In this document: positions 1,789 to 14,621 of the stretch, in pieces | Layout: each line of letters begins with the position of its first letter | How positions within the stretch are numbered: the first letter of the stretch is position 1 | From: a virus | IMG/VR virus record: IMGVR_UViG_3300037189_025052 | Span: 1-20,013 of that record | Reading direction: 5' to 3' (one strand) | Length of the DNA stretch: 20,013 nt | The notes under the pieces: generated by a model | Told to the model about the DNA's origin: nothing | Database searches by the model: none | The model's input: the letters and a program-made list of their open reading frames with translations, nothing else | Made by a program: the position numbers and the translations under genes

Positions 1789-2025
1789 TTACTTCCGCAA
1801 TTCAGCTATCTCAATTAACAACCTTTTAATGTCTTGCATATCAGATTCTAATTGGGCAAGACGCTCTTTTGTTTCTAATTGTTCAGCTTTATTTTTAATC
1901 AATATATTTTTTCTTTGTTTATATTCAACCAAAGCAGAGTAATTATCGTTTAATAATGCTTTAGAATGAATATCACGAATTAAAGATTCGTTTTCAGTTT
2001 TTATTAAAGTGGACTCTTTTATCAT
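1789..2025 (-). CDS. Small conserved coiled-coil protein, 78 aa
   Basis: A 78-residue charged protein. The N-terminal part, with KTENESLIRDIHSKALLND, is followed by a basic stretch (KQRKNILIKNK, about residues 36-46). The C-terminal helix (about residues 47-77) has heptad-like spacing of Leu/Ile/Met and fits a short coiled coil. From memory, small proteins with a similar N-terminus and coiled-coil end occur in tail-gene clusters of other marine T4-like viruses, so it is probably a real conserved gene rather than a chance ORF. It starts with an ATGA overlap of the 514-residue gene's stop, implying translational coupling. Possible roles are an assembly factor or trimerisation adaptor for the neighbouring fibre proteins; no biochemical function is known to me. 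Confidence 0.75.
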   Translation of the reverse strand: MIKESTLIKTENESLIRDIHSKALLNDNYSALVEYKQRKNILIKNKAEQLETKERLAQLESDMQDIKRLLIEIAELRK

Positions 2026-3566
2026 GGTGCTAAAGCCAAAGCTCTAAATTCTCTTACAATTGGAGAATATGTTGGATTACTTGTTCTCATAACTATTTTA
2101 ATAGCAAATGTTTTAAAAGTTTCATAATTGGTTGAATTAGAACCAATATATGAAGTGTCACTTGTAAAAGGAATATACAAGTATTCTATAAAATCATCAA
2201 GTGTTTGAGAATTTCTTGTATCGGCTAACAATTCATTACCTTGTTGAACTCGCTTCATTCTTACATATGGTCTGTCATCAAAATTTGTACTTACATCATC
2301 AGCTGAAAGAACTTTATAATAAACTTCAATTTCAGCTTCAACTGGTTTATAAGCAGTAAAATACACTCGTATCATATTCGCATCAAAACCATCCTGTAAA
2401 GTAACTCGGCGTGTAATATATCTTGATATTCCTGGACCGCCACGGCTATTGGTTTCTTGTTCCGCAATAATTACTGCCGTAGTATTACCTGATGGAACAA
2501 GAGGCGCATCTGGTGTTACTGTTACTGTATCAACATAACCAGAACCTCCATTATTTACCACAATACTTTCTATTTTACCAGATGTTGTGTTGGCTACTCC
2601 TGTAATTGAAGCACCTGATCCATAAGTTGAAGAAATAGCAATATTAATATTACTTGTGTAACCAGATCCTCCATTAATGATTGTGAAATCTTCTACCTCA
2701 AAACTACAATCATTAATGTTGTATTTTATTCCTATCACATTTAATCGTTCAGCATCTATAATTGGAGAAACATCTTCATCTGTTGTACTTAAATTAACAT
2801 TTATATCAAATGAACCATTTGCTGAGTTTAAAAAAACATTTCTTTCATTTAAATATATGTCATTATCTATATCTGTTGGTTCATAATCACTACTTAAAAT
2901 TTTTGTAGAATTTGATGTTGTTTTAATGCTATAATTTATTAATGTATCATTAAAAGATAATTCTGTGGAATTAATTTTAAAGACATCATATTCAGTATTT
3001 GCCGTTGGAGCACGATTTAAAACTCTAAGAGCTCTACTGCCTGTTAAAAAATCACACTTATTTAAACGAAAAACTAAATCAATGTCTTGATAAGCAGTAT
3101 ATGTTGTACCATTAGATGATTTAAAGAAAGATCCGGAATATGGTTGCTTATCTACTCGCCTATCAGATCCATCTAATCTTGTGCCACCAATTTCAGCAAT
3201 AAAAACTTCGTAGTTATCTGAATATGTGCTAAGAACTAAAGCATGTTCACCAGGTAACAAATAAACAGGAGCAACAAAAGGAAATCTAGTAAAGTGAGAT
3301 GTATTATCTAAACTTGGAATGTTTGGATATTCTCCTGATACAGTATTGATTGCGAAATGTTTTTTGGTTATGGAAGAAAAAGGATAAAAAATATAAGAAT
3401 GTGGATAACCATTTAATGTTGGCCGTAATTCAACAGTAAATGGTAAATATGTTTCAGTATCTTTTGTGCGAAAAATTAAATCAACACTATTTAAAAAAAC
3501 ACCTTTTGGATATAAAGAAGCATCCACAAAAAAGGTTTGTGCTACTGGATTAATCGTTGTTGCCAT
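2022..3566 (-). CDS. Virion structural protein, partner of DUF4815-type protein (514 aa)
   Basis: This 514-residue beta-rich protein opens with INPVAQTFFVD (residues 5-15), followed by KGVFLNSVDLIFRTKDTET and FTVELRPTLNGYP. I recognise this pattern from the C-terminal part of large DUF4815-type structural proteins of marine T4-like phages (the DPLAQTF segment), so it may be a detached C-terminal domain of the preceding gene. Residues about 290-355 carry two Gly-Tyr repeats (INGGSGYTSN and NNGGSGYVDT), a module also found in gp6, gp8 and the gp7-position protein. A C-terminal beta segment has FDANMIRVYFTAYKP and FDDRPYVRMKRVQ. It starts 23 bases after the preceding stop and overlaps the next gene by ATGA. 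It is likely a peripheral baseplate or fibre-attachment component; this is inference from family resemblance and position. Confidence 0.8.
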   Translation of the reverse strand: MATTINPVAQTFFVDASLYPKGVFLNSVDLIFRTKDTETYLPFTVELRPTLNGYPHSYIFYPFSSITKKHFAINTVSGEYPNIPSLDNTSHFTRFPFVAPVYLLPGEHALVLSTYSDNYEVFIAEIGGTRLDGSDRRVDKQPYSGSFFKSSNGTTYTAYQDIDLVFRLNKCDFLTGSRALRVLNRAPTANTEYDVFKINSTELSFNDTLINYSIKTTSNSTKILSSDYEPTDIDNDIYLNERNVFLNSANGSFDINVNLSTTDEDVSPIIDAERLNVIGIKYNINDCSFEVEDFTIINGGSGYTSNINIAISSTYGSGASITGVANTTSGKIESIVVNNGGSGYVDTVTVTPDAPLVPSGNTTAVIIAEQETNSRGGPGISRYITRRVTLQDGFDANMIRVYFTAYKPVEAEIEVYYKVLSADDVSTNFDDRPYVRMKRVQQGNELLADTRNSQTLDDFIEYLYIPFTSDTSYIGSNSTNYETFKTFAIKIVMRTSNPTYSPIVREFRALALAP

Positions 3567-3589: not shown

Positions 3590-6500
3590 TTAGCAATCGC
3601 CGGTACCCGAATCGCCGGTACCACCTGAATCACCGCTTCCATCACCGGTGCCGCTTCCATCGCAACCGGTGCCACCGGTACCGCAGCCAGTACCGGTACC
3701 GGTACCGCCGGCGCCATCACCGTCACTACCACCACCACCGCTGTACACATAACCAATAACTGTGGATTTAACCGTTGTATCTTGTACCGCATATGATGGA
3801 CCAGCATCAACATCTTCGTAAATATTACTTACTTTTATAACTGGAACACGAATTGAAACAGAAATATCTTCGATAATGTTTAAAATTCCTCTAGCCTCAA
3901 ACGACCTTTCTGCTATCATTGTTGTTAATATAGGATTATTTTGTTTATTATCAACAATCCTAAAAATCTTAGAACCTGTTGTAAATCTAGTTTCACTTAA
4001 ATAAGTTGTTGCATCTAGATTTGGCAAATGAAAAGTACCTGACATATAACCAAAATCATCAGTACTTGGAAAAAGAACCGACCAAATAGAAGTTTGATCT
4101 GGAATAACATCCCAAGCAGTGTTTACAGTAGCTACTTTTGTATTTCCATTATAGTTAGTTATTGTTCTGTTTTGTCCAGCACCTTTTCCAGAAACAATTC
4201 GTACTCTATTATATCCTAAATCAACACTATAATTTAATGCCGTATTGCTTCTGTTTGGATGTGAATACCAATCTCTTGCCTGAGCATGACTGATAGAATT
4301 GAAGGTGTTACCTATATCCGTATACCAATTTGTATAAGGAGCCCCAGATCCTAAAGTGATTGATGTAGCATTAGCAGTTACAACATTTGAAGCATTCCAT
4401 GTTAATGAATTTATTACAGCAGTACAAAGACTTTGTGAACCCGTAATCGTATCATTAGCAGCAAAAGTTCCTCTCATATTAGTAACATACAAATAAGAAT
4501 TTGGAGCAGCCCAAGAACGACCTTGTTGTAAAATGGCTGTTGCTGTTCCACCACTTGAAGATGTTATAGTTTCATATGCACCATAACCAGATATAAAATT
4601 ACTACTTACATTTATTAATTCAAAGCAAGAAGGCATTTCAATAAATTTATTCACATATGTATCATCAAAATAAAGGTAAGCAAATTTATTTGGTTTTAAA
4701 TTTTTAGCAACAAATTTAATTGGTTGAGAACGAATATAAGGAACAACAGATAAATCAACTTGTCTATTGCCAATATTTTCTACAATTCTGTCTGGAACAA
4801 CAGTTGTATTTGTGCCAGTTCTAAATTTTCTTTGATCTGTAGTTACTGTTGTTCTAGAAATTGTATCTTGATAGATGTAAGTACCATCTTGTCGTTGTTG
4901 TGTAATTAGTTGTGTTTGTGAAGATTGACCAGTATTGTAAATAGTATAATCACCAAATTGTGTTCCAAAACCTGGAGCTCGAAGATCCTCTAAAGCTTTA
5001 CCAATATTTTCCCAAGCATCATTTTCACCTTCTAGATTTACAAGAACATCAGGCCTATTTTCCGTATCGATCCAATAGTCTGAAGCAGGAAATAAACTAA
5101 TAGCACCACTATAAAAATTCAAATTGAATGGATTAACAGCTAAAGAACGAGATGATACATTTTGAGCAATTAAGTTTGAGGAAGTAAAAGGTAAACTAAC
5201 AACTGTATTACCAGCGTAAAGATTAGCTGTTGCTGTAGATGTGTCAACAATAAATCCTAAAGCATTTGCCGTAAAAAATGGTCTCAATTCTCCCTTTTCA
5301 AAATCCATAGAACAATTGTAATCAATATTTCCAACATCACCAATTTGGTGTCCTCTAAACGAATCAACTAAAATACCGTTTTTAAATCTTTCTAATCCAT
5401 CCGAATCAAGAACTGTTAAATCGGCCGCTGATTTTTCCAAAGTGTTTAAAAGAGAATAATATTCTAAATTGCCAATTCTTTTCTCTAATCTACCAATATC
5501 TCTCATCGTATATCGTTTGTTTTCAAAATATCTTATCTTAACATCAGTAGGAAAGAAAGTATAAGGAGAAATATTTAATTCATAAAGAGTCATTCCTAAA
5601 TCATCATCCGGTTTAGCAACAGGAGTTAAACTAGGATTACCAGTTAATACTTTAAAAGTTCTGTCTTGTGTTAGAGTAATTTTATCTTTTCTTGGTAAAT
5701 AATACGAATAATCTGATTCTAAAGCTTCTTCAGCCTTAGTTATAGAAATTCCATTTAAAGTAAAATTAGTTGTAGCATTTGTTCTTATTGGTCTAAAATC
5801 AACACAATCTCTTAAACTTAGTATAGTACCGTTTGTTGGACTTGTAAAAGAAGGTATTTGAGCATATCTACTATCTGTATTAGCAGATAAACTTGCCACA
5901 TTATAAGAATCTACTGTTAGGTAACCTGAACCAGAATGAGTAAAATAATTAACTAAAACTAAAATTTGACCAATTGGAGGATTAACATATGGTTTTAATG
6001 TAATTGAAGCATGGTCATAGTAATTATCTTTTTGCCCATCATTCAAAATATAACGGTCAGTAATATCTTTTGAAGAATTGGTTAAATCCGCTACGGCAAC
6101 AGCTACAGCAGGATTACCAGAATCAATAACTTTGAAAGAACCTTTTCTTATTGAACTTCCAATTTGTACATTAAAACGACCGTACTGTTTATCAAAATCA
6201 CCATTTAATTTATGAACATCTGAAATATAAAGATTGTCAGAAGAACCATTTCTTTTATTTGGACTGCTTATAGCAATTTGACCAAAAGAAGGATAAATGG
6301 TTGTAGAACCAATTGTAGTTCCGCCAGTTACAGCTACATTAGTTGTATTTGCCTCAACATATGTTTTTGTTTTTGCTACAGAAGAATTAAAATCTACAGT
6401 AGCAATAATGTCTACTGTAAATGTATTTCCTGTCGCAAATGATAAATTTGCAGCAGAACCTGAAACTGTAATGGATCTTCCAGAAGAAGTAGCAAATGTT

Positions 6501-8431
6501 ATTGCTTGATTTGAAGTAAACTCTGGAGCACCAGAAACATTATTAGCATACACTAAAAAGTGTTCTAATTTTTGAGTTTCAGAAAGAGCACCAGATCCAA
6601 CAAATAATTGATTAGCATCACCGGTCGAAAGATTTAATACACCGGTAGTAACAGTTTGATTCTTAAATACTTTTCTTCCACGATAGTCTTGATCTGACAT
6701 ACCAAAAGATATGAAATTTTCTGGTATTTTAAAAACTAATGAATTAAAATCTGTATCGGATAAAAAAGTATTTCCTGTAGCAATAGTACCAGTTTTATTT
6801 GTATCTGAAACATTAGCTGTTGCTATTAATGTTGCGGATGAATTAACAACAAAAGATTCTATATCTTTAATATTAAAATCAATATTATAGACTGAATTTG
6901 CTCCAGGAGAAGTTGTAAATGGTAAATTTGGATCTACAGTAGCTGTTTTTGTTGAAGCATCATAGTTAATAATTGTTCGTTTTGCGTTATCACCAGCTAA
7001 GCCAGTTGTGATGCGAATAATAGAACCACTATAAGCATTGCTTGATGTTGATGATAAACCGCCTAAGATAATGGATGTTGTATTTCCACCTGTAGCATTA
7101 CCAGTAATTGGTACAAAATTCGTATCAAAAATATAAAAGTTATATTTGTATGTTTGTGTATTGCCTGTATTGGCCGCAGAAACATACTCAATTTGCCGTA
7201 TTCTAGCAGTACCAATTTTTGTATTAGCTAATAAGTTTGTATTAGCAGTATTAATTTTGCCTACATCAACACAATGTAGGTCAATTGATGACATGGTACT
7301 AATGTCAAAAAGACCTTTAACATTAGAGACCTCCAAATAATTACCATAATTTGATTCTATATCATAATTTATAACATTTGCTTTTGTCCTAGCACGGCTA
7401 ATATCAATATTTCTTGCTGATACAGTTTCAAATTCAAAACCACGAATGTAAGCTTTTCCTGGACTTAAAGAAACAGTAAGTAATTCGCTATTAGCAGTAT
7501 TACCTAATGAAGGTACATTATCTTTTACTTCTATTAAAAAAGGTTTTACAGTATAATTACCTGATTCGTCATAAGTTCTACGAGCAAAAGTTTTTTCTAG
7601 TTCAGAATATATTGGGTATATTCTTTGATAAACAATTTGACTATTTTCTAAACGAATAATTTCAAAAAACTTTGTATCATCAGTTGAAGTTAATGTTCTT
7701 TTAGCAAGGGTTAAAGTAATTTTATATCTTGCTGCTCCAGGTGCTTGATAATTTGAAGCATTTAAAGCTGGATCTAATAAAGAAGTATCTTCTAATTCAG
7801 TTATAACTGAATCATTAAATTCTAAACCAATTCTATATGAAGCATTTATAGAATATTTTTCTAAAGGTATTGTTTGAGCGCTAACTTTTATAAAATAACC
7901 ATCAATATAATATACACCTTCATTAATAAAAGCTACAGACGAAGCGCCTATAGCATTTGCTTCATTTAAAACTCTTCCTTCAAATGCATCACTATCGAAA
8001 GTGTAAAAACTATCACCAACATTAAATACAGTTGCTACAGCAAATTGTATAATAATTGTTGGCGGATCAGTATCCGTAGCCTCAATAACAGCGATAACAC
8101 GAGCAATACTACCTTCTGAGGTTGATGTTTTAGCAATTTTTTTGTTTAAGAAGTTATTTACATCAATATTGTTACCATTAGAATCTGTTGTTTCTAACTT
8201 TAAATAGGTAACTGTTGTAGAATAAGAAACTTCGCCGCCAGTTACAACTGAACCGTTGCGGAATATATGTGTACCAAATCGTTCAACTTGTTTTTGAAGG
8301 ATGCTTTGTATTTGAGTTAATTCACGAGCCTGTAAAGCATAACCAGGTTTAAATAAAAGTTTTAAATATTTTTTATCCTCATCATAATCATCATAATAAG
8401 GATTAACATTAAAATTTTGAACTAATGACAT
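3590..8431 (-). CDS. DUF4815-type baseplate/fibre structural protein (1613 aa)
   Basis: This is the largest protein in the window. The N-terminus (residues about 10-70) has NPYYDDYDEDKKYLKLLFKP, YALQARELTQIQSILQKQVE and FRNGSVVTGG, which I recognise as the DUF4815 signature of large structural proteins in marine T4-like phages. Its position directly after gp8 corresponds to T4 gp9/gp10, so a peripheral baseplate pin or fibre-network role is likely but not shown. Two internal copies of an RTI-x-NY-x4-TK-x-ATV module lie near residues 480-500 and 1435-1455. The last 50 residues are an extreme Gly/Thr/Asp/Ser tail with three Cys, ending in DC, encoded by GC-rich DNA unlike the rest. Start choice is firm: ATG with AGGA six bases upstream, overlapping the gp8 stop codon. 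No catalytic motif was seen. Confidence 0.88.
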   Translation of the reverse strand: MSLVQNFNVNPYYDDYDEDKKYLKLLFKPGYALQARELTQIQSILQKQVERFGTHIFRNGSVVTGGEVSYSTTVTYLKLETTDSNGNNIDVNNFLNKKIAKTSTSEGSIARVIAVIEATDTDPPTIIIQFAVATVFNVGDSFYTFDSDAFEGRVLNEANAIGASSVAFINEGVYYIDGYFIKVSAQTIPLEKYSINASYRIGLEFNDSVITELEDTSLLDPALNASNYQAPGAARYKITLTLAKRTLTSTDDTKFFEIIRLENSQIVYQRIYPIYSELEKTFARRTYDESGNYTVKPFLIEVKDNVPSLGNTANSELLTVSLSPGKAYIRGFEFETVSARNIDISRARTKANVINYDIESNYGNYLEVSNVKGLFDISTMSSIDLHCVDVGKINTANTNLLANTKIGTARIRQIEYVSAANTGNTQTYKYNFYIFDTNFVPITGNATGGNTTSIILGGLSSTSSNAYSGSIIRITTGLAGDNAKRTIINYDASTKTATVDPNLPFTTSPGANSVYNIDFNIKDIESFVVNSSATLIATANVSDTNKTGTIATGNTFLSDTDFNSLVFKIPENFISFGMSDQDYRGRKVFKNQTVTTGVLNLSTGDANQLFVGSGALSETQKLEHFLVYANNVSGAPEFTSNQAITFATSSGRSITVSGSAANLSFATGNTFTVDIIATVDFNSSVAKTKTYVEANTTNVAVTGGTTIGSTTIYPSFGQIAISSPNKRNGSSDNLYISDVHKLNGDFDKQYGRFNVQIGSSIRKGSFKVIDSGNPAVAVAVADLTNSSKDITDRYILNDGQKDNYYDHASITLKPYVNPPIGQILVLVNYFTHSGSGYLTVDSYNVASLSANTDSRYAQIPSFTSPTNGTILSLRDCVDFRPIRTNATTNFTLNGISITKAEEALESDYSYYLPRKDKITLTQDRTFKVLTGNPSLTPVAKPDDDLGMTLYELNISPYTFFPTDVKIRYFENKRYTMRDIGRLEKRIGNLEYYSLLNTLEKSAADLTVLDSDGLERFKNGILVDSFRGHQIGDVGNIDYNCSMDFEKGELRPFFTANALGFIVDTSTATANLYAGNTVVSLPFTSSNLIAQNVSSRSLAVNPFNLNFYSGAISLFPASDYWIDTENRPDVLVNLEGENDAWENIGKALEDLRAPGFGTQFGDYTIYNTGQSSQTQLITQQRQDGTYIYQDTISRTTVTTDQRKFRTGTNTTVVPDRIVENIGNRQVDLSVVPYIRSQPIKFVAKNLKPNKFAYLYFDDTYVNKFIEMPSCFELINVSSNFISGYGAYETITSSSGGTATAILQQGRSWAAPNSYLYVTNMRGTFAANDTITGSQSLCTAVINSLTWNASNVVTANATSITLGSGAPYTNWYTDIGNTFNSISHAQARDWYSHPNRSNTALNYSVDLGYNRVRIVSGKGAGQNRTITNYNGNTKVATVNTAWDVIPDQTSIWSVLFPSTDDFGYMSGTFHLPNLDATTYLSETRFTTGSKIFRIVDNKQNNPILTTMIAERSFEARGILNIIEDISVSIRVPVIKVSNIYEDVDAGPSYAVQDTTVKSTVIGYVYSGGGGSDGDGAGGTGTGTGCGTGGTGCDGSGTGDGSGDSGGTGDSGTGDC
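3593..3742 (-). repeat. GC-rich simple-repeat tract encoding Gly-rich tail
   Basis: These 150 bases encode the C-terminal 50 residues of the 1613-residue protein. They are built of imperfect repeats of GGTACC, ACCGGT and GCCGGT-like units, giving Gly every second residue or so with Thr, Asp, Ser and Cys between. Base composition contrasts sharply with the AT-rich flanks. Other frames also stay open here, producing a spurious overlapping reading frame (3550-3813). Confidence 0.8.
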
Positions 8432-8437
8432 ATCGTT

Positions 8438-8441
8438 TCCT
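8438..8441 (-). promoter_or_regulatory. Ribosome binding site (AGGA) overlapping gp8 stop
   Basis: The minus-strand sequence TAGGAAACGATATG places AGGA six bases before the ATG of the 1613-residue gene. The gp8 stop TAG shares its last two bases with the site, implying coupled translation. Confidence 0.65.
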
Positions 8442-10044
8442 AGAACTTAACAACAAATTTAATATTTTCGGCTTGACCATCTACTCTATCAATTTTTAAT
8501 TCATTATCAATATATAAAATATCTCCAGCATACGGTTTAAATTCTGGATTTGTAACAGATACAATTGTTCTGGAAACGCCAGAAGTTAATCCATTGAGTG
8601 ATAAACCAGGCAAAAATGTTCCTTTTACTTTTGTTAATCTCACTTCATTTGTAGTTTGAGCATTAACAAAAGCATAAGCGGTAGGATTACTTAATGAACC
8701 CTGATAAACATATTCGTTTAAAGTAAAACTTAAACCTGCTACGATACTTAAATCGGTAGTTTGTGAAATTACACTATTAGCTGTAGATGTATTTGCTATA
8801 ACAGTTGAATCATATTTATATGGGTCCCTTAACAGGCCTATTTGTCTAAAAGATGTATCGGTAGATATTAAACCATTTTCACTCGAATCAATTTCTCCAA
8901 TCCTAACTGATACCATAACATTATTTGCATTTAACTCTTTAGCAGGATTATATGCGTGACCAAATTTTGGAGGAAGAACAACCCTACAGTTAGCATTAGT
9001 GCCTGAACCGTAAATAAAAGCATTAGCAGAACTATATCCTGTTCCAATAGTAGTTACTGAAATTTTAGATACATTTGCATTAGCAGCTGAAACTTGAGAA
9101 GAAGTATTTGATAGAGTTGCTAAAGCTATAGCTCCAGTTCCATCACCTTCAATGTAAACTCTAGTAGATACTGTAATATTATTAGCATTACCTCCAGCTG
9201 AAGTTGTTGCTGCTGATATATTAATAACACCAGTAATTGTCGAAAGAGATGTAATATATGAACCTGTAGAAATTCCAGTACCCGTAATTGACATATTTGC
9301 CAAATTAGCAAGTGTTGGTATACTAAAAATTTCTAAAACTAAGTTAGTATTTGATAGTTTTAGTGATGTTTGGCCAGATGTAAATCCATCAAATTTTATA
9401 TTTGAGGCTTGGCGATAATTTGTTCCTGAATTTTTAACTATGATGGATGTTAATTCTCCATCAACAACACCTAAAGGACTTACTCCAAAATCTAAAGCAC
9501 TGGTGCTGGTTGGTGCTGGGACCCAATTATCATCCAAAAATTTATTCGAAGAAGAAACATTAAACATATACTTCCAAATATAACCATCCGCAGTACCAAT
9601 ATTGCCATTCGAAGTGTTGTAATCTCCTGAAGGTTCAACGGTAGAATTTGCGGAATTATTATTTGAAACGCACTTGTATACATTTCTGCCTGATGTAAAA
9701 ACATACATCGATTTTAAATTTCGTGTTGTATTGGCAGTAAATAAATCACCAAATTCAATTGTGTCATCATAACTTCTATATTTGGTGTTGGCTGTCCAAT
9801 CAAACCTAGGAATGACTAAACTCAAATCATTTCCTGTAATTTTCTTTGCAGCAAACATATTATCCCAAGCTTGTTTTTCGGTGTTTACCGTTTCAACTAT
9901 AGGGTCTGGGCTTAATTCGTTTGCGTAAGGGACATTGTTTCCTATGAAAACATAGGAAATAGAGGGAGTATTTGCTTCCGAAAACGCTTCTTTAAACTGT
10001 TCAGCGTTATGGAATGATAATTTATGGGTTACTATCGAGGGCAT
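8440..10044 (-). CDS. 8: Baseplate wedge subunit gp8
   Basis: Homologue of T4 gp8, a dimeric wedge component. Recognisable blocks match T4 gp8 in order: SLVIPRFDW (residues 75-83; T4 has DAVIPRRDW), TADGYIWKYMF (151-161; T4 GDGYVWEYLF), SFRQIGLLRDP (about 395-405; T4 GFRQISIITNP), and an NIKFVVKF C-terminus (T4 EINILFTF). At 534 residues it is about 200 longer than T4 gp8. The excess lies mostly between about residues 190 and 365, where two Gly-Tyr units (KNSGTNYRQ, TTIGTGYSS), a GDGTGA element and a TGTGISTGSYI beta element are inserted. It lies between the gp7-position gene and the DUF4815-type gene, as gene 8 lies between 7 and 9/10 in T4. The first nine bases upstream are non-coding with no SD; an ATAAATA motif precedes the start. 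Confidence 0.88.
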   Translation of the reverse strand: MPSIVTHKLSFHNAEQFKEAFSEANTPSISYVFIGNNVPYANELSPDPIVETVNTEKQAWDNMFAAKKITGNDLSLVIPRFDWTANTKYRSYDDTIEFGDLFTANTTRNLKSMYVFTSGRNVYKCVSNNNSANSTVEPSGDYNTSNGNIGTADGYIWKYMFNVSSSNKFLDDNWVPAPTSTSALDFGVSPLGVVDGELTSIIVKNSGTNYRQASNIKFDGFTSGQTSLKLSNTNLVLEIFSIPTLANLANMSITGTGISTGSYITSLSTITGVINISAATTSAGGNANNITVSTRVYIEGDGTGAIALATLSNTSSQVSAANANVSKISVTTIGTGYSSANAFIYGSGTNANCRVVLPPKFGHAYNPAKELNANNVMVSVRIGEIDSSENGLISTDTSFRQIGLLRDPYKYDSTVIANTSTANSVISQTTDLSIVAGLSFTLNEYVYQGSLSNPTAYAFVNAQTTNEVRLTKVKGTFLPGLSLNGLTSGVSRTIVSVTNPEFKPYAGDILYIDNELKIDRVDGQAENIKFVVKF

Positions 10045-10050
10045 AAACTG

Positions 10051-10058
10051 TATTTATG
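10051..10058 (-). promoter_or_regulatory. Late-promoter-like motif (CATAAATA) before gp8
   Basis: CATAAATA differs from the T4 late consensus TATAAATA at one base. It lies in a 12-base string, TGACATAAATAC, that is identical to one upstream of gp48. It overlaps the stop of the gp7-position gene and ends only six bases before the gp8 ATG, so a start site at the usual distance would give an almost leaderless mRNA. It may be a promoter or a conserved junction sequence. Confidence 0.35.
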
Positions 10059-12564
10059 TCAATATTTTTAAAGTTTGTGTATTAGAATTTAATGAAAAAG
10101 CTGAAGAAACGGCAACATTTGTATTACTAATAATACTGCTAATTGTTCTAATTTGACCATTTACAGACACATTAGAACCAAGGGTTAATATTCCTCTTGT
10201 ATTAGCAACATTGAATTTGGTACCTGTTCCAACGATAAAAATTGATCCGTTTGTAGTATTTACAAAACCAGATATAGTATTGGAGGTCTCAATAGAAATC
10301 GTAGTATTGGTAGTTTCAATAGTTTTAAAACGATTGAATAGGGCATAATTAACAAAACCCGAAGGGTGTAAAAGGTCTTTTAATATATTTTTATATTTTT
10401 TGAAAGAAGTTAAAGAAGAAGTTACATATGAAAAATTTATATAATAATCTTCGCCTTCTAATCTTCTTTCTGTTGTTGAAATTATAGAGTCTGTTGTTGT
10501 CCAACGGCCAGGAAATGCGGTATAAGAAGCACCTAAAGTTGCGTTAGCAATAGCATTTCCAGCACCATAACCAGTTAAATCAATTTGTGGTATATATTTG
10601 TAACCTTCTCCACCAGAAGTCAATTTAATTGATTGTATAACACCTTTAGGATTTTCTGCGATTGCGGTTAAACTTTCACCATCACCCATCAAAGAAGTTA
10701 TAGCTATATTTGCTCCAGAACCACCAAAAGCTGTAGATACATTGACTGTTGGAAAGTTATTTTGTGTATAGTTTACTCCACCTGTTATACCTCTAACATA
10801 AGATCCAACACTATAATTGTTTCCTGTAATAGTAAATGCCACATTGACATTTGCTTGTGTTGAAGAAGTAATGGCATTAATATATCTGTCTTGACCTGAA
10901 ATTATAATTTTGTCACCAATTCGTAAATCAGTATTAAAATTAGTGTTTGTACCAATAATCATAACACCATTATTTGTTATGTTTGCTGTGCCTGTAATTC
11001 TAGGCGCTTGTACTGAAATTGACAGTATTGTTCCTGTTCCATTTACAGCTGAAACTGCGGCGGCCGCTCCATATCCATATGTGTCGTTTGGATTTGAACC
11101 AAAAATAACTTCATCTCCAACTCTATAACCTGTACCTCCATTATATACATCAATTCTACCTACAGACCTGAAGTTTTTAATATCAAAAAAGCTAGAACCT
11201 GCTTGGTAAATAGCACCTTCTGAATCTAATGAAGAAGTATTAATAGAGGTATTTGAAAAAATAACCGTTGCGTTTGTTATAGGTCCAAGATCAGTAATCG
11301 TTAAAGGAGTTAAAGCATCAACCAATCGACTGTTAACATTTTCTGATAACGCACCTGGAAAACCGTAATTTGGAGCAGAAATTAAAATATTTAAATAACT
11401 ACTAATTACATCATCCGTAATAATGTAAGTATTCGCAGTAGTCGATAGTGTATTAACTGAAGAAATGGCACCTGTTATAATTGAAGGTAAATTTTGGCTT
11501 TTAATAATTCCTGCCGTTTTAAAACCAGCACCACCATAATTAACTTGTATTTTTGTGGTAACTCCAGAAGAAACAGATTCTACTTCAGCTGTTGCTCGTG
11601 AAACGGCGCCGCCCGCAACAATTAAAACTGGATCTCCTACATTATAATCTGTTCCTCCATCAATAACATTTATCTTTGTTAAAATTGAAAAAGTATCAGC
11701 AACAACTTTTATTAAATTACCATTAGAATCAATAATACTACTTTCAACTTCTTCGCCATTTTCAAAAGAACCAACTAAGGTCTTTGAATTAACAAACAAC
11801 TCAAAAGGTAAACCAAAATTTAATCTATCGGTAATAAGTCTTGAAACAGCTCTTTCAACTATAGCTGTAGCACCAGAAGAAAGACCTGTTATTTTTCTGT
11901 TTGTTAATAACTCAATATCAAAATCGTTATAGTCTACTTTTATTATTGAGTTTGCAGCTGGAGCAGAATTAAAAATTATTTTTTTCGTTTCTTTTCTTAT
12001 TACATAATTTAAATTTTCTTGTTGTAAAGAACCATTTACATATACATCAATATCGCCAGAATTTACTGGCTGAGCAAGAAAGAAAGTTGTATTTGAACCG
12101 TTACTTGTATAAACGCTTCTTATATCGGTTTTAATTTTTAGAAGATTATCAATTGACCATTTGCCATCAGAAAGTCTTAAAATATTATCTTTTGGTAATT
12201 GTATTGAAACTTCATCGTTATACAAAAGTCTAAAGAGTAATTTAAAGGCAGCTTCATTACCTTTTGCCAAATATAACGGTAATAAATTTTTAATTAAAAA
12301 ATCTTTGCTAACTTCTGTTTCTCTTGGAACCAACGAAGCAAAAGTATTAAAAAAACTATTCTCAAAATTATCTATTGATAAATCAACATCAGGAATATTT
12401 CTAAGATTTTTAGCCTGCTGAGTTAAATCATTTTTTTGGCCTGTTTGCTTTTGTTCTAAAAATTCATAATATGCTTCTAAGAAGGTTATGAATAATGGAT
12501 ATTCTTCCCGAACAAATTCAGGAACCTGACGGTTGATTAATATTGAGGTATTTGCGAAAGACAT
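10054..12564 (-). CDS. Probable baseplate wedge protein in gp7 position (836 aa)
   Basis: Located between gp6 and gp8, exactly where T4 encodes wedge subunit gp7 (about 1030 residues), but I see no clear sequence match to T4 gp7, so the assignment rests on synteny. The N-terminal 130 residues are helical and distinctive: QVPEFVREEYPLFITFLEAY, then FLIKNLLPLYLAKGNEAAFK and LLFRLLYNDE, a pattern I recall from large structural proteins of marine T4-like phages. The rest is beta-rich: SGDIDVYVNGSLQQ-type segment (about 165-215), Gly-Tyr modules near residues 300-350, 470-520 and 595-680, and two copies of a GT-x2-F beta unit near 530-580 and 770-825. Its ATG overlaps the gp6 stop by one base (TAATG). 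It probably links inner and outer wedge parts, as gp7 does. Confidence 0.75.
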   Translation of the reverse strand: MSFANTSILINRQVPEFVREEYPLFITFLEAYYEFLEQKQTGQKNDLTQQAKNLRNIPDVDLSIDNFENSFFNTFASLVPRETEVSKDFLIKNLLPLYLAKGNEAAFKLLFRLLYNDEVSIQLPKDNILRLSDGKWSIDNLLKIKTDIRSVYTSNGSNTTFFLAQPVNSGDIDVYVNGSLQQENLNYVIRKETKKIIFNSAPAANSIIKVDYNDFDIELLTNRKITGLSSGATAIVERAVSRLITDRLNFGLPFELFVNSKTLVGSFENGEEVESSIIDSNGNLIKVVADTFSILTKINVIDGGTDYNVGDPVLIVAGGAVSRATAEVESVSSGVTTKIQVNYGGAGFKTAGIIKSQNLPSIITGAISSVNTLSTTANTYIITDDVISSYLNILISAPNYGFPGALSENVNSRLVDALTPLTITDLGPITNATVIFSNTSINTSSLDSEGAIYQAGSSFFDIKNFRSVGRIDVYNGGTGYRVGDEVIFGSNPNDTYGYGAAAAVSAVNGTGTILSISVQAPRITGTANITNNGVMIIGTNTNFNTDLRIGDKIIISGQDRYINAITSSTQANVNVAFTITGNNYSVGSYVRGITGGVNYTQNNFPTVNVSTAFGGSGANIAITSLMGDGESLTAIAENPKGVIQSIKLTSGGEGYKYIPQIDLTGYGAGNAIANATLGASYTAFPGRWTTTDSIISTTERRLEGEDYYINFSYVTSSLTSFKKYKNILKDLLHPSGFVNYALFNRFKTIETTNTTISIETSNTISGFVNTTNGSIFIVGTGTKFNVANTRGILTLGSNVSVNGQIRTISSIISNTNVAVSSAFSLNSNTQTLKILT

Positions 12565-14621
12565 TAAACTGTTTCTAGGTTTACTGTAATAGAAGATGGA
12601 TCGGTTTCATCAATTGTAATTATTGTATTTCTAACCGATTCAATGATGCCTTTTTCTGATTCTATTGATAATCGAACTGTTTCGTCTGTTGATGAAACGC
12701 TGGTAATATTAATGTCATTTATTGTAATCGTGCCTGCATCATAATTAACTTCGCCAACATTACTATCTACAATTTGTCTTTGAGCATTACTATCAAAATA
12801 AACTGTTCTTAATGTTCCAATTTTCGCATCTATAATAGCAGTAGCTACGGCTCCAGAACCGCCGCCGCCACTAATTGTAACAATGGCTCTAGAATAATCG
12901 ATGCCTCGGTTTATAATATTAATTTTTTCGATAGATCCATTTACAATTACCGCTTCTGCTGTTGCTCCTGTACCATCACCAGTTACAGTTACTGTTGGAG
13001 CAACCAAATAGTTTAGACCTGGATTTGAAACTGAAATTGAAGATATGCCAGTAAATGATAAAGGAACTTCTTCAAAAATAACAGTTCTATTTACTCCAAC
13101 CGAATCTCTTACCGTAAATTCTGTAGAGGTTAATTTATTTGTTACTGTTCCTCTGTGTATAGGAATATTAAAATTTATTTCATAAGAAGCATTTTGATTT
13201 AACAGAGGTATAAATCTCTTTTGTGCTCTAATCGTCAATTCATTACCAATAATAGAATTTAAATCAACATCATCGATTGCTTTTTCTAATTTAGAATCAA
13301 CCAATCTGGCATCAAATTTATCCAAAAAGGTATCTTTATAGTTAAGTACCGCATTACGAATACTTTCTTTTAAACTTGATTCTGTTTTTGTTGTTTTTTT
13401 AGGATCATATTTAGCTTCTACTTCAACAATTAGGTACAAGTATTCTGGATCAATAATCTCGGATGTAGTTGTAATTATTGATTTTGGATCAACAATCTCT
13501 CTAACAATTCTTAATTTTTCTGTTTCAGAAATAAAGTAACCTTCTCTTGGTTTTAAAGATATAAAAACTTTACCATAAACGGGAGGAATATTTTCTTCGC
13601 CACCCCAAACAGAAATTGAATCTATATCTGGATAATTATTTAAAATATATGTTTCATAATCTTTATAAGTTACCAAACGGTTTTGTGTTGAAAATCTTGC
13701 TGCAGCTGAAAATTTAATATTGTCAACACTTTCTCGGTCAGAACCTCCTGCAGCTGCACTTTGCGGATTAATAGTGAAATTAGATAAAGGTATTCCTCTT
13801 GAGTCTGTAACTGTCGCAGTAGCAACAAAATTATTTGCTTTATTCGCAGAAGTTCCATTCGTAACTAGGTAAGTAACTGTTACAATTGCACCATCAGGTA
13901 AAGATTTGCCTACAACACCATTTCCAAAATATATTTCAAATAATCCTCCACGACTTTCTTGTAAAAAGAAAACTTCAGAAGAAGATGTTATATCTAAAAC
14001 ATCAGTTACTTTTTCGTATACTGTTGTTGCGCTATTAGCTGCATTTGGAGTTACTGAAACTTTGATTGTTGTCGTGTCAATTTGTGAATCAGGTAATTGA
14101 AAAATTGACTTTGGATTTGAACTCGCATCGTAATTGAAAGAATATGTAATTAACTGACCTTCATAAACATTTAAATTTTCAAAAACATATTGTGTATTAG
14201 ATTTAGTTACAGTTGTGTCCTCTAACACCACAAAATTATAAGCACGACCATCTATTTGATTTGATAAAAAAGCAAAGCCTTCTGGTAAAGTACAAGTAGC
14301 AGATACAGCTGAATTTGATTCTATCGTAAAATTAATTATTGAAACAGGTGATCTTGTGGAGTAAGGCGTATAACCTAATGTTTTAGCATGAGATACTACT
14401 GAATCACGGAGAAGGGCGGTATCAAGAAAAGACTCATTTGCTACCATATTTAAATAATAGGCGTTGTAATGAGTATTATAGGCAAGAATATCTAATAGAA
14501 CTGATAAACCAGCACCATCAAAATCATAATCCGTAAATTCAGGTTGTTGTTTTAAAAATGCTTTGAGATTAGTTTTGATTGTATCAAAATCTAATTCGGT
14601 TACTCTTAAACGGTCTACCAT
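12564..14621 (-). CDS. 6: Baseplate wedge subunit gp6 (baseplate J-like)
   Basis: Homologue of T4 gp6, the wedge protein whose dimers form the inner ring that holds the baseplate together and rearranges during sheath contraction. The length, 685 residues, is close to T4 gp6 (660). The N-terminus (residues 1-90) has TELDFDTIKTNLKAFLKQQP, FDGAGLSVLLDILAYNTHYN and YLNMVANESFLDTALLRDSV, which are characteristic of the family. The mid-region (about 225-330) contains GLFEIYFGNGVVGKSLPDGA and NRLVTYKDYETYILNNYPDI, the baseplate J-like core. Near residues 525-600 it carries two Gly-Tyr-like repeats (NPGLNYLVAPTVTV, GDGTGATAEA, NRGIDYSRA, GGGGSGAVATA), which appear to be an insertion. It begins one base after the gp25 stop codon and its stop overlaps the next start. 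Confidence 0.93.
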   Translation of the reverse strand: MVDRLRVTELDFDTIKTNLKAFLKQQPEFTDYDFDGAGLSVLLDILAYNTHYNAYYLNMVANESFLDTALLRDSVVSHAKTLGYTPYSTRSPVSIINFTIESNSAVSATCTLPEGFAFLSNQIDGRAYNFVVLEDTTVTKSNTQYVFENLNVYEGQLITYSFNYDASSNPKSIFQLPDSQIDTTTIKVSVTPNAANSATTVYEKVTDVLDITSSSEVFFLQESRGGLFEIYFGNGVVGKSLPDGAIVTVTYLVTNGTSANKANNFVATATVTDSRGIPLSNFTINPQSAAAGGSDRESVDNIKFSAAARFSTQNRLVTYKDYETYILNNYPDIDSISVWGGEENIPPVYGKVFISLKPREGYFISETEKLRIVREIVDPKSIITTTSEIIDPEYLYLIVEVEAKYDPKKTTKTESSLKESIRNAVLNYKDTFLDKFDARLVDSKLEKAIDDVDLNSIIGNELTIRAQKRFIPLLNQNASYEINFNIPIHRGTVTNKLTSTEFTVRDSVGVNRTVIFEEVPLSFTGISSISVSNPGLNYLVAPTVTVTGDGTGATAEAVIVNGSIEKINIINRGIDYSRAIVTISGGGGSGAVATAIIDAKIGTLRTVYFDSNAQRQIVDSNVGEVNYDAGTITINDINITSVSSTDETVRLSIESEKGIIESVRNTIITIDETDPSSITVNLETV

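Follow-up and report, generated by a model that had tools for sequence, protein, structure and literature searches.

Several baseplate proteins of the virus studied here carry a portable, insertion-type beta domain, a module made of short Gly-Tyr units that is absent from T4 gp6 and T4 gp8. Profile comparisons indicate that the module is probably related, at a distance, to domain I of the T4 sheath protein gp18 (Pfam PF22639, Gp18_dom_I), and this link is the new point. Taken as a whole, the explanation that we favor on balance is that a gp18-domain-I-like module was inserted in several baseplate proteins, where it would most likely form a docking knob.

The window is the whole stretch of DNA analyzed, a 20,013-base viral fragment with a T4-like baseplate operon on its minus strand. 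The operon encodes gp25, gp6, a protein at the gp7 position (p836; window 10054-12564), gp8 (534 aa; 8440-10044), a 1613-aa DUF4815 protein (p1613; 3590-8431), and a 514-aa protein whose ORF spans 2022-3566 (p514). Through gp6, the nearest cultured relatives are Methylophilales phage Melnitz and Pelagibacter phage HTVC008M, with 40% identity over approximately residues 1-504. The window also contains two adjoining, similar genes of 223-225 aa at 434-1111 and 1115-1786, with NLTVSGN-like beta repeats; their products, for which Pfam matches were sub-threshold only, are perhaps short fibre proteins.

The beta unit has the consensus ITSITITNGGSGYTFAPTVTLSGAGGSGATAAAE over approximately 35 residues and the order strand, GGxGY turn, strand, GxGA turn, strand. 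Units are mostly paired at a spacing of approximately 40 residues, so that a pair comprises six strands. The original prediction had placed the Gly-Tyr pattern in gp6, gp8, p836, and p514, and every site that it named was confirmed in frame on the minus strand, which is the strand of all units of the window described below. An iterated unit profile scored ten units across these four proteins. The first unit of gp8 and one unit of p836 are each split by another domain.

In gp6 (685 aa), the module is an insertion. Unit 1 (residues 526-557; 12951..13046) scores 36.5 bits and unit 2 (residues 564-596; 12834..12932) scores 16.8 bits. In the AF2 model, strands are predicted at 525-533, 543-548, and 554-560 for unit 1 and at 563-571, 579-584, and 592-598 for unit 2, with a block mean pLDDT of 80-91 over residues 521-600 and no helix within 523-602. 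Residues 317-685 of the model superpose on T4 gp6 (3h2t) over 271 residues at 3.3 A with a Z of 22.4; thus, the T4 fold is retained around the module. The gp6 proteins of Melnitz, HTVC008M, Mosig, BUCT-ZZ01, and phiM12 are 594-619 aa in length and have no unit, and four of the five align hairpin strand to hairpin strand across the module site, with BUCT-ZZ01 aligning less cleanly. The unit is likewise absent from T4 gp6 and from three cyanophage gp6 proteins, a direct search with the gp6 module among named phages gave no match, and none of the 2401 phage records with a gp6 match spans 80% of the window gp6. The module is present in all 150 near-full gp6 ORFs of a clade sampled by similarity to the window virus, and several glycines, a Tyr, and Ala are invariant there.

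The gp8 protein is longer than that of T4 (534 versus 334 aa), with the units lying in the extra part, as had been proposed, and T4 gp8 has no unit. The gp8 proteins of cyanophages S-MbCM6 and P-HM1 contain an unbroken unit pair. The gp8 of the window virus clade has a pair of the same type in which a nested domain splits the first unit. Its first part occupies residues 199-224 (9373..9450; 16.0 bits) and its last strand, placed by alignment with cyanophage gp8, residues 299-312 (GDGTGAIALA; 9109..9150). Unit 2, at residues 325-353 (8986..9072), is marginal at 11.7 bits (E 0.024) and aligns with the GGTGYT unit of cyanophage gp8. Between the two parts of unit 1 lies a tailspike/decoration-like beta domain at residues ~225-298 (9151..9372), which is absent from the gp8 proteins of S-MbCM6 and P-HM1. 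In the model (residues ~209-295), VIA-align matches it to 7w1d, 8eci, 4ru4, and 6e0v over 69-76 residues at an rmsd of 1.8-2.6, and it resembles domains in K1 lyase, phage Bridgette (8eci), LKA1 gp49, and Phi92 gp150, at a Z of 7.4-7.8, a range where common arrangement alone is possible. The gp8 model itself falls below 50 at 184-206 and 330-339 and is of too low quality across the module to reveal a fold, so among the models, structural support is good for the gp6 module only. Separately, gp8 residues 428-499 are modeled as a small barrel like T4 gp7 768-843 (5iv5_BJ; Z 7.7, 1.4 A over 64 residues), which also resembles EF-Tu-type barrels at a Z of ~5.

Five units were placed in p836. Unit a (residues 296-329; 11578..11679) scores 20.2 bits and is also matched by the gp18 domain I profile, and its partner, unit b (residues 337-372, GGAGF; 11449..11556), was placed by eye and has no profile score. 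Unit c (residues 468-504; 11053..11163; 23.1 bits) gives the best gp18 domain I match. A second unit is interrupted by a nested domain with inferred boundaries at residues 519-590 (10795..11010), and the remainder of that unit is unit d (residues 594-623; 10696..10785; 17.9 bits). Unit e (residues 643-676; 10537..10638) scores 35.1 bits. The nested domain is one of two copies of a second repeated domain in p836, of the GTxTxF...GDxI type, which is nested in a GGxGY module once and C-terminal (759-836) once. A profile of residues 519-592 found 761-829 at 23.9 bits, and the reverse direction gave 30.5 bits.

p514 contains unit 1 at residues 291-322 (2601..2696; 22.1 bits) and unit 2 at residues 332-369 (2460..2573; 29.5 bits). 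p514 is the detached C-terminal part of what is, in relatives, a single protein of approximately 1985 aa. p514 and p1613 form a single fused ORF of more than 1900 aa in 53 loci and are separate in ten, and no locus has both states; this is a gene split. Relatives of p514 are scarce, as only three loci were found by pattern search, and a search of named phages with the p514 module returned 17 records, all below 60% identity. The C-terminus of p1613 is a tail rich in Gly, Thr, Ser, Asp, and Cys.

The recurrence of the module across protein families was assessed with profiles searched against the 15 window proteins and 1888 ORFs from 164 loci, some of which share a contig and three of which are parts of the window; because these loci overlap or duplicate one another, counts of units and families are not counts of independent genomes. 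The iterated unit profile gave 946 domain matches at E<=0.01, and the reversed set gave zero even at E<=1. Profiles built from one family recovered most of the others, as judged against 315 shuffled or reversed sequences. The gp6-only profile matched p514 (20.1 bits), p836 (16.0), and gp8 (15.1), with the best control at 7.0. The gp8-only profile matched gp6 at 21.4 bits (control 7.7), the p514-only profile matched p836 at 20.2 (control 9.5), and the p836-only profile matched p514 at 17.4 (control 7.8). Matches of at least 12 bits occur in 154 of 160 gp6-family ORFs, 139 of 146 for p836, 66 of 114 for gp8, 41 of 100 for p1613, and 6 of 12 for p514. Nine further families of this operon, with 528 ORFs between them, had no such match. 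Three contigs (135.9, 157.7, and 123.8 kb) gave 17 profile matches in total, each of them in a module-bearing family as judged by place and frame length. It could be argued that the likeness of the units reflects convergence of glycine-rich beta hairpins with no shared ancestry, since the units are short, their composition is biased, and some cross-family pairs stay at control level (gp8 to p514 at 7.8 bits versus 7.7, and p836 to gp8 at 8.8 versus 7.8, neither clearly above controls). This is highly improbable, given that reversed sequences of equal composition yield no matches, that strand order and both loops are common to the units and come in pairs, and that gp6 gained whole units at one defined site.

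Portability, as originally predicted, is borne out by the absence of the unit from T4 gp6, T4 gp8, and the gp6 of five isolates. The same residues were not found at homologous positions of T4 gp6 and gp8, and the module segments are not integral to the conserved core of these proteins. The predicted route of spread, intragenomic recombination, has no support for any recent time from either a comparison of slots or a codon test. Units in the same slot of different genomes reach 0.60-0.77 of the self score, whereas units in different slots score about equally within and between genomes; for instance, the similarity of gp6 units 1 and 2 is 0.39 within 122 loci and 0.40 between loci. Recent copying between genes was rejected, as units within a genome are no closer than units of different genomes. 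The same codon is used at 220 of 461 identical amino-acid positions (0.477), compared with 0.478 expected from codon usage. The slot scores and the random use of synonymous codons thus show that each module copy is old and evolves independently, in the manner of orthologues. An old duplication could still be their origin. At the nucleotide level, the best repeat that joins two of the proteins through the module is 38 nt at 79%.

A statistical link to gp18 domain I emerged from searches in both directions. In the T4 stretch examined, the only notable match of the unit profile was gp18 residues ~102-118 (11.9 bits, E 0.02). Across the complete T4 genome there was one match, at E 0.002, whose place is not among the matches listed, and a unit search of solved structures reached gp18 102-171 at E 7.5 only. 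In reverse, a profile from 16 sheath domain I sequences gave 38 matches at E<=1, of which 34 lie at module sites, which make up 4.7% of residues; its best match scored 16.1 bits versus 9.9 on reversed sequences. With hhalign, the gp18 profile was compared with 270 windows over twelve families, 38 of them module windows, and the top eight were all module windows. The best was p836 461-545, at unit c (P 1.1e-8 over 60 columns), although the p836 sequences that mainly carry the link are orthologous and hence not independent. A mixed-family module profile matched gp18 weakly (P 0.0013-0.0017, probability 15-19%), and the top 25 windows include none from gp6; p836 is therefore the bridge on which the kinship depends.

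The Pfam Gp18_dom_I model reported no window protein at E<=1, and only T4 scored above its cut-off. Below the cut-off, it gave 11 matches outside T4, in seven of ten non-T4 records, with eight of the 11 overlapping listed module places, and it also matched two of 14 control genomes. Fold searches with the whole gp6 and gp8 models placed no gp18 chain among the best 50 matches listed for either; this says nothing against the kinship, because a large protein can mask a single-domain match.

In the published description, gp18 domain I (residues 98-188) consists of a six-stranded barrel and a helix; it is inserted in domain II, protrudes, lies outside the gp18-gp18 contacts, and binds the baseplate and the retracted long fibres (PMC3004832). 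The module would share its strand order, the turn after strand 1 (G-x-N-Y in gp18 and G-x-G-Y in the module), and its nature as an inserted domain, and six strands are predicted for the gp6 module. It differs in residing in baseplate proteins instead of the sheath, and the gp6 module model lacks the helix described for gp18 (PMC3004832). The gp18 mutations G106S, S175F, and A178V are reported to inhibit fibre retraction (PMC3004832). All three positions fit the T4 sequence when numbered without the initiator Met. G106 corresponds to the glycine of the TPGSNY motif, its third residue, and S175 and A178 are the fifth and eighth residues of SSSSSGLAAV, which by our reading of the strand order would be the counterpart of the second-unit GxGA loop.

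The unit profile also matches proteins beyond this operon. S-MbCM6, P-HM1, P-RSM6, P-SSM7, and Sf-CH1b have 22-28 unit matches each, and Melnitz, HTVC008M, Mosig, phiM12, and BUCT-ZZ01 have 2-4 each; HTVC008M bears the module in gp8 and in its gp7-position protein. The cyanophage matches include the annotated gp14 neck (S-MbCM6 and P-HM1), the gp5 hub (Sf-CH1b), gp7, and giant structural proteins, and the PHROG neck family phrog_460 matches the window gp6, p514, and p836. The giant cyanophage proteins (L161 11473-30156 and L164 8690-20158; frames of 7022 and 7124 aa), one of which is annotated as gp8, differ in having tandem unit arrays, and a cyanophage protein with five tandem units is not obviously composed of two-unit barrels. 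By sequence match, the tailspike Dpo31 (PDB 28lx) has two units at 450-513 (E 4e-4), differing in being a tailspike. Relatives are also encoded on twelve cellular contigs, both bacterial and archaeal (128 pattern matches). Among the four of these loci that were read, one, from a proteobacterial MAG (L191 ~4001-4390), encodes a giant protein with at least six tandem units, and the other three appear by our reading to encode two secreted-looking proteins and one resembling a prophage tail protein. The promiscuous Ig-like domains of phage virion proteins are likewise portable extra beta domains (PMC9230969), and no Ig-type Pfam family matched p514, p836, gp6, or gp8 at E<=1. Searches of the literature for the motif (GSGYT, phage structural protein) and for PF22639, gp18 domain I, and sheath domain I found no description of the module, which does not prove that it is unpublished.

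A docking knob is favored because of the kinship with gp18 domain I and because the fibre-retraction mutations lie at the glycine of the motif and in the second of the glycine loops. A two-unit, six-strand module would have entered hairpins or loops of gp6, gp8, p836, and the DUF4815 protein, of which p514 is the C-terminal part. Its two glycine loops would form an edge gripping tail fibres or neighboring wedge proteins before contraction, and the barrel would additionally carry further nested domains. For these baseplates, exposure and docking are inferred by kinship, and the docking role itself is put forward tentatively, at slightly under even chances. The decoration of the outer baseplate surface suggested originally is plausible only via the relation to gp18 domain I.

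Glycan binding, the other role first suggested, found no support; the tailspike-like part of gp8 is a separate nested domain. A broader version, in which the module would serve adhesion as a decoration with weak affinity for cell-surface glycans, would accord with the unit pair in the solved Dpo31 tailspike, with the related units in secreted-looking bacterial and archaeal proteins, and with the glycan binding proposed for the extra Ig-like domains of sheath proteins (PMC9230969). However, the conserved positions are turn-like glycines, a Tyr, and small residues, with no sugar-binding residues known here, and the gp18 relative has a tail fibre as its documented partner; adhesion is thus unlikely. 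We give a similarly low probability to the module being a neutral spacer or scaffold, one without a specific partner that makes baseplate proteins larger and accommodates nested insertions. Two copies do host nested domains (gp8 225-298 and p836 519-590), and gp6 is functional without the module in other phages, but a spacer would not readily explain its retention, with invariant residues, in every near-full gp6 ORF of the similarity-chosen clade.

The widest form of the docking reading is that gp18-domain-I-like docking barrels constitute an unrecognized superfamily across all contractile-tail tiers (the sheath in T4 and the wedge, hub, and neck proteins in marine phages), tailspikes, and bacterial and archaeal surface proteins, with the glycine loops as a common fibre socket. 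This wider form is speculative and rather doubtful at present; were it true, relocating a single knob would let phages hold their fibres at different sites. For annotation, caution is warranted, as PHROG or BLAST matches through the module can pass on wrong names, such as neck, gp7, gp8, or tail fibre. The motif occupies long unannotated stretches of marine T4-like virion proteins, and the kinship provides it with an evolutionary label and a functional one that can be tested; it also connects the T4 sheath knob with baseplate insertions in aquatic phages. From the gp18 mutations, it is predicted that fibre position depends on the equivalent glycines of the baseplate copies.
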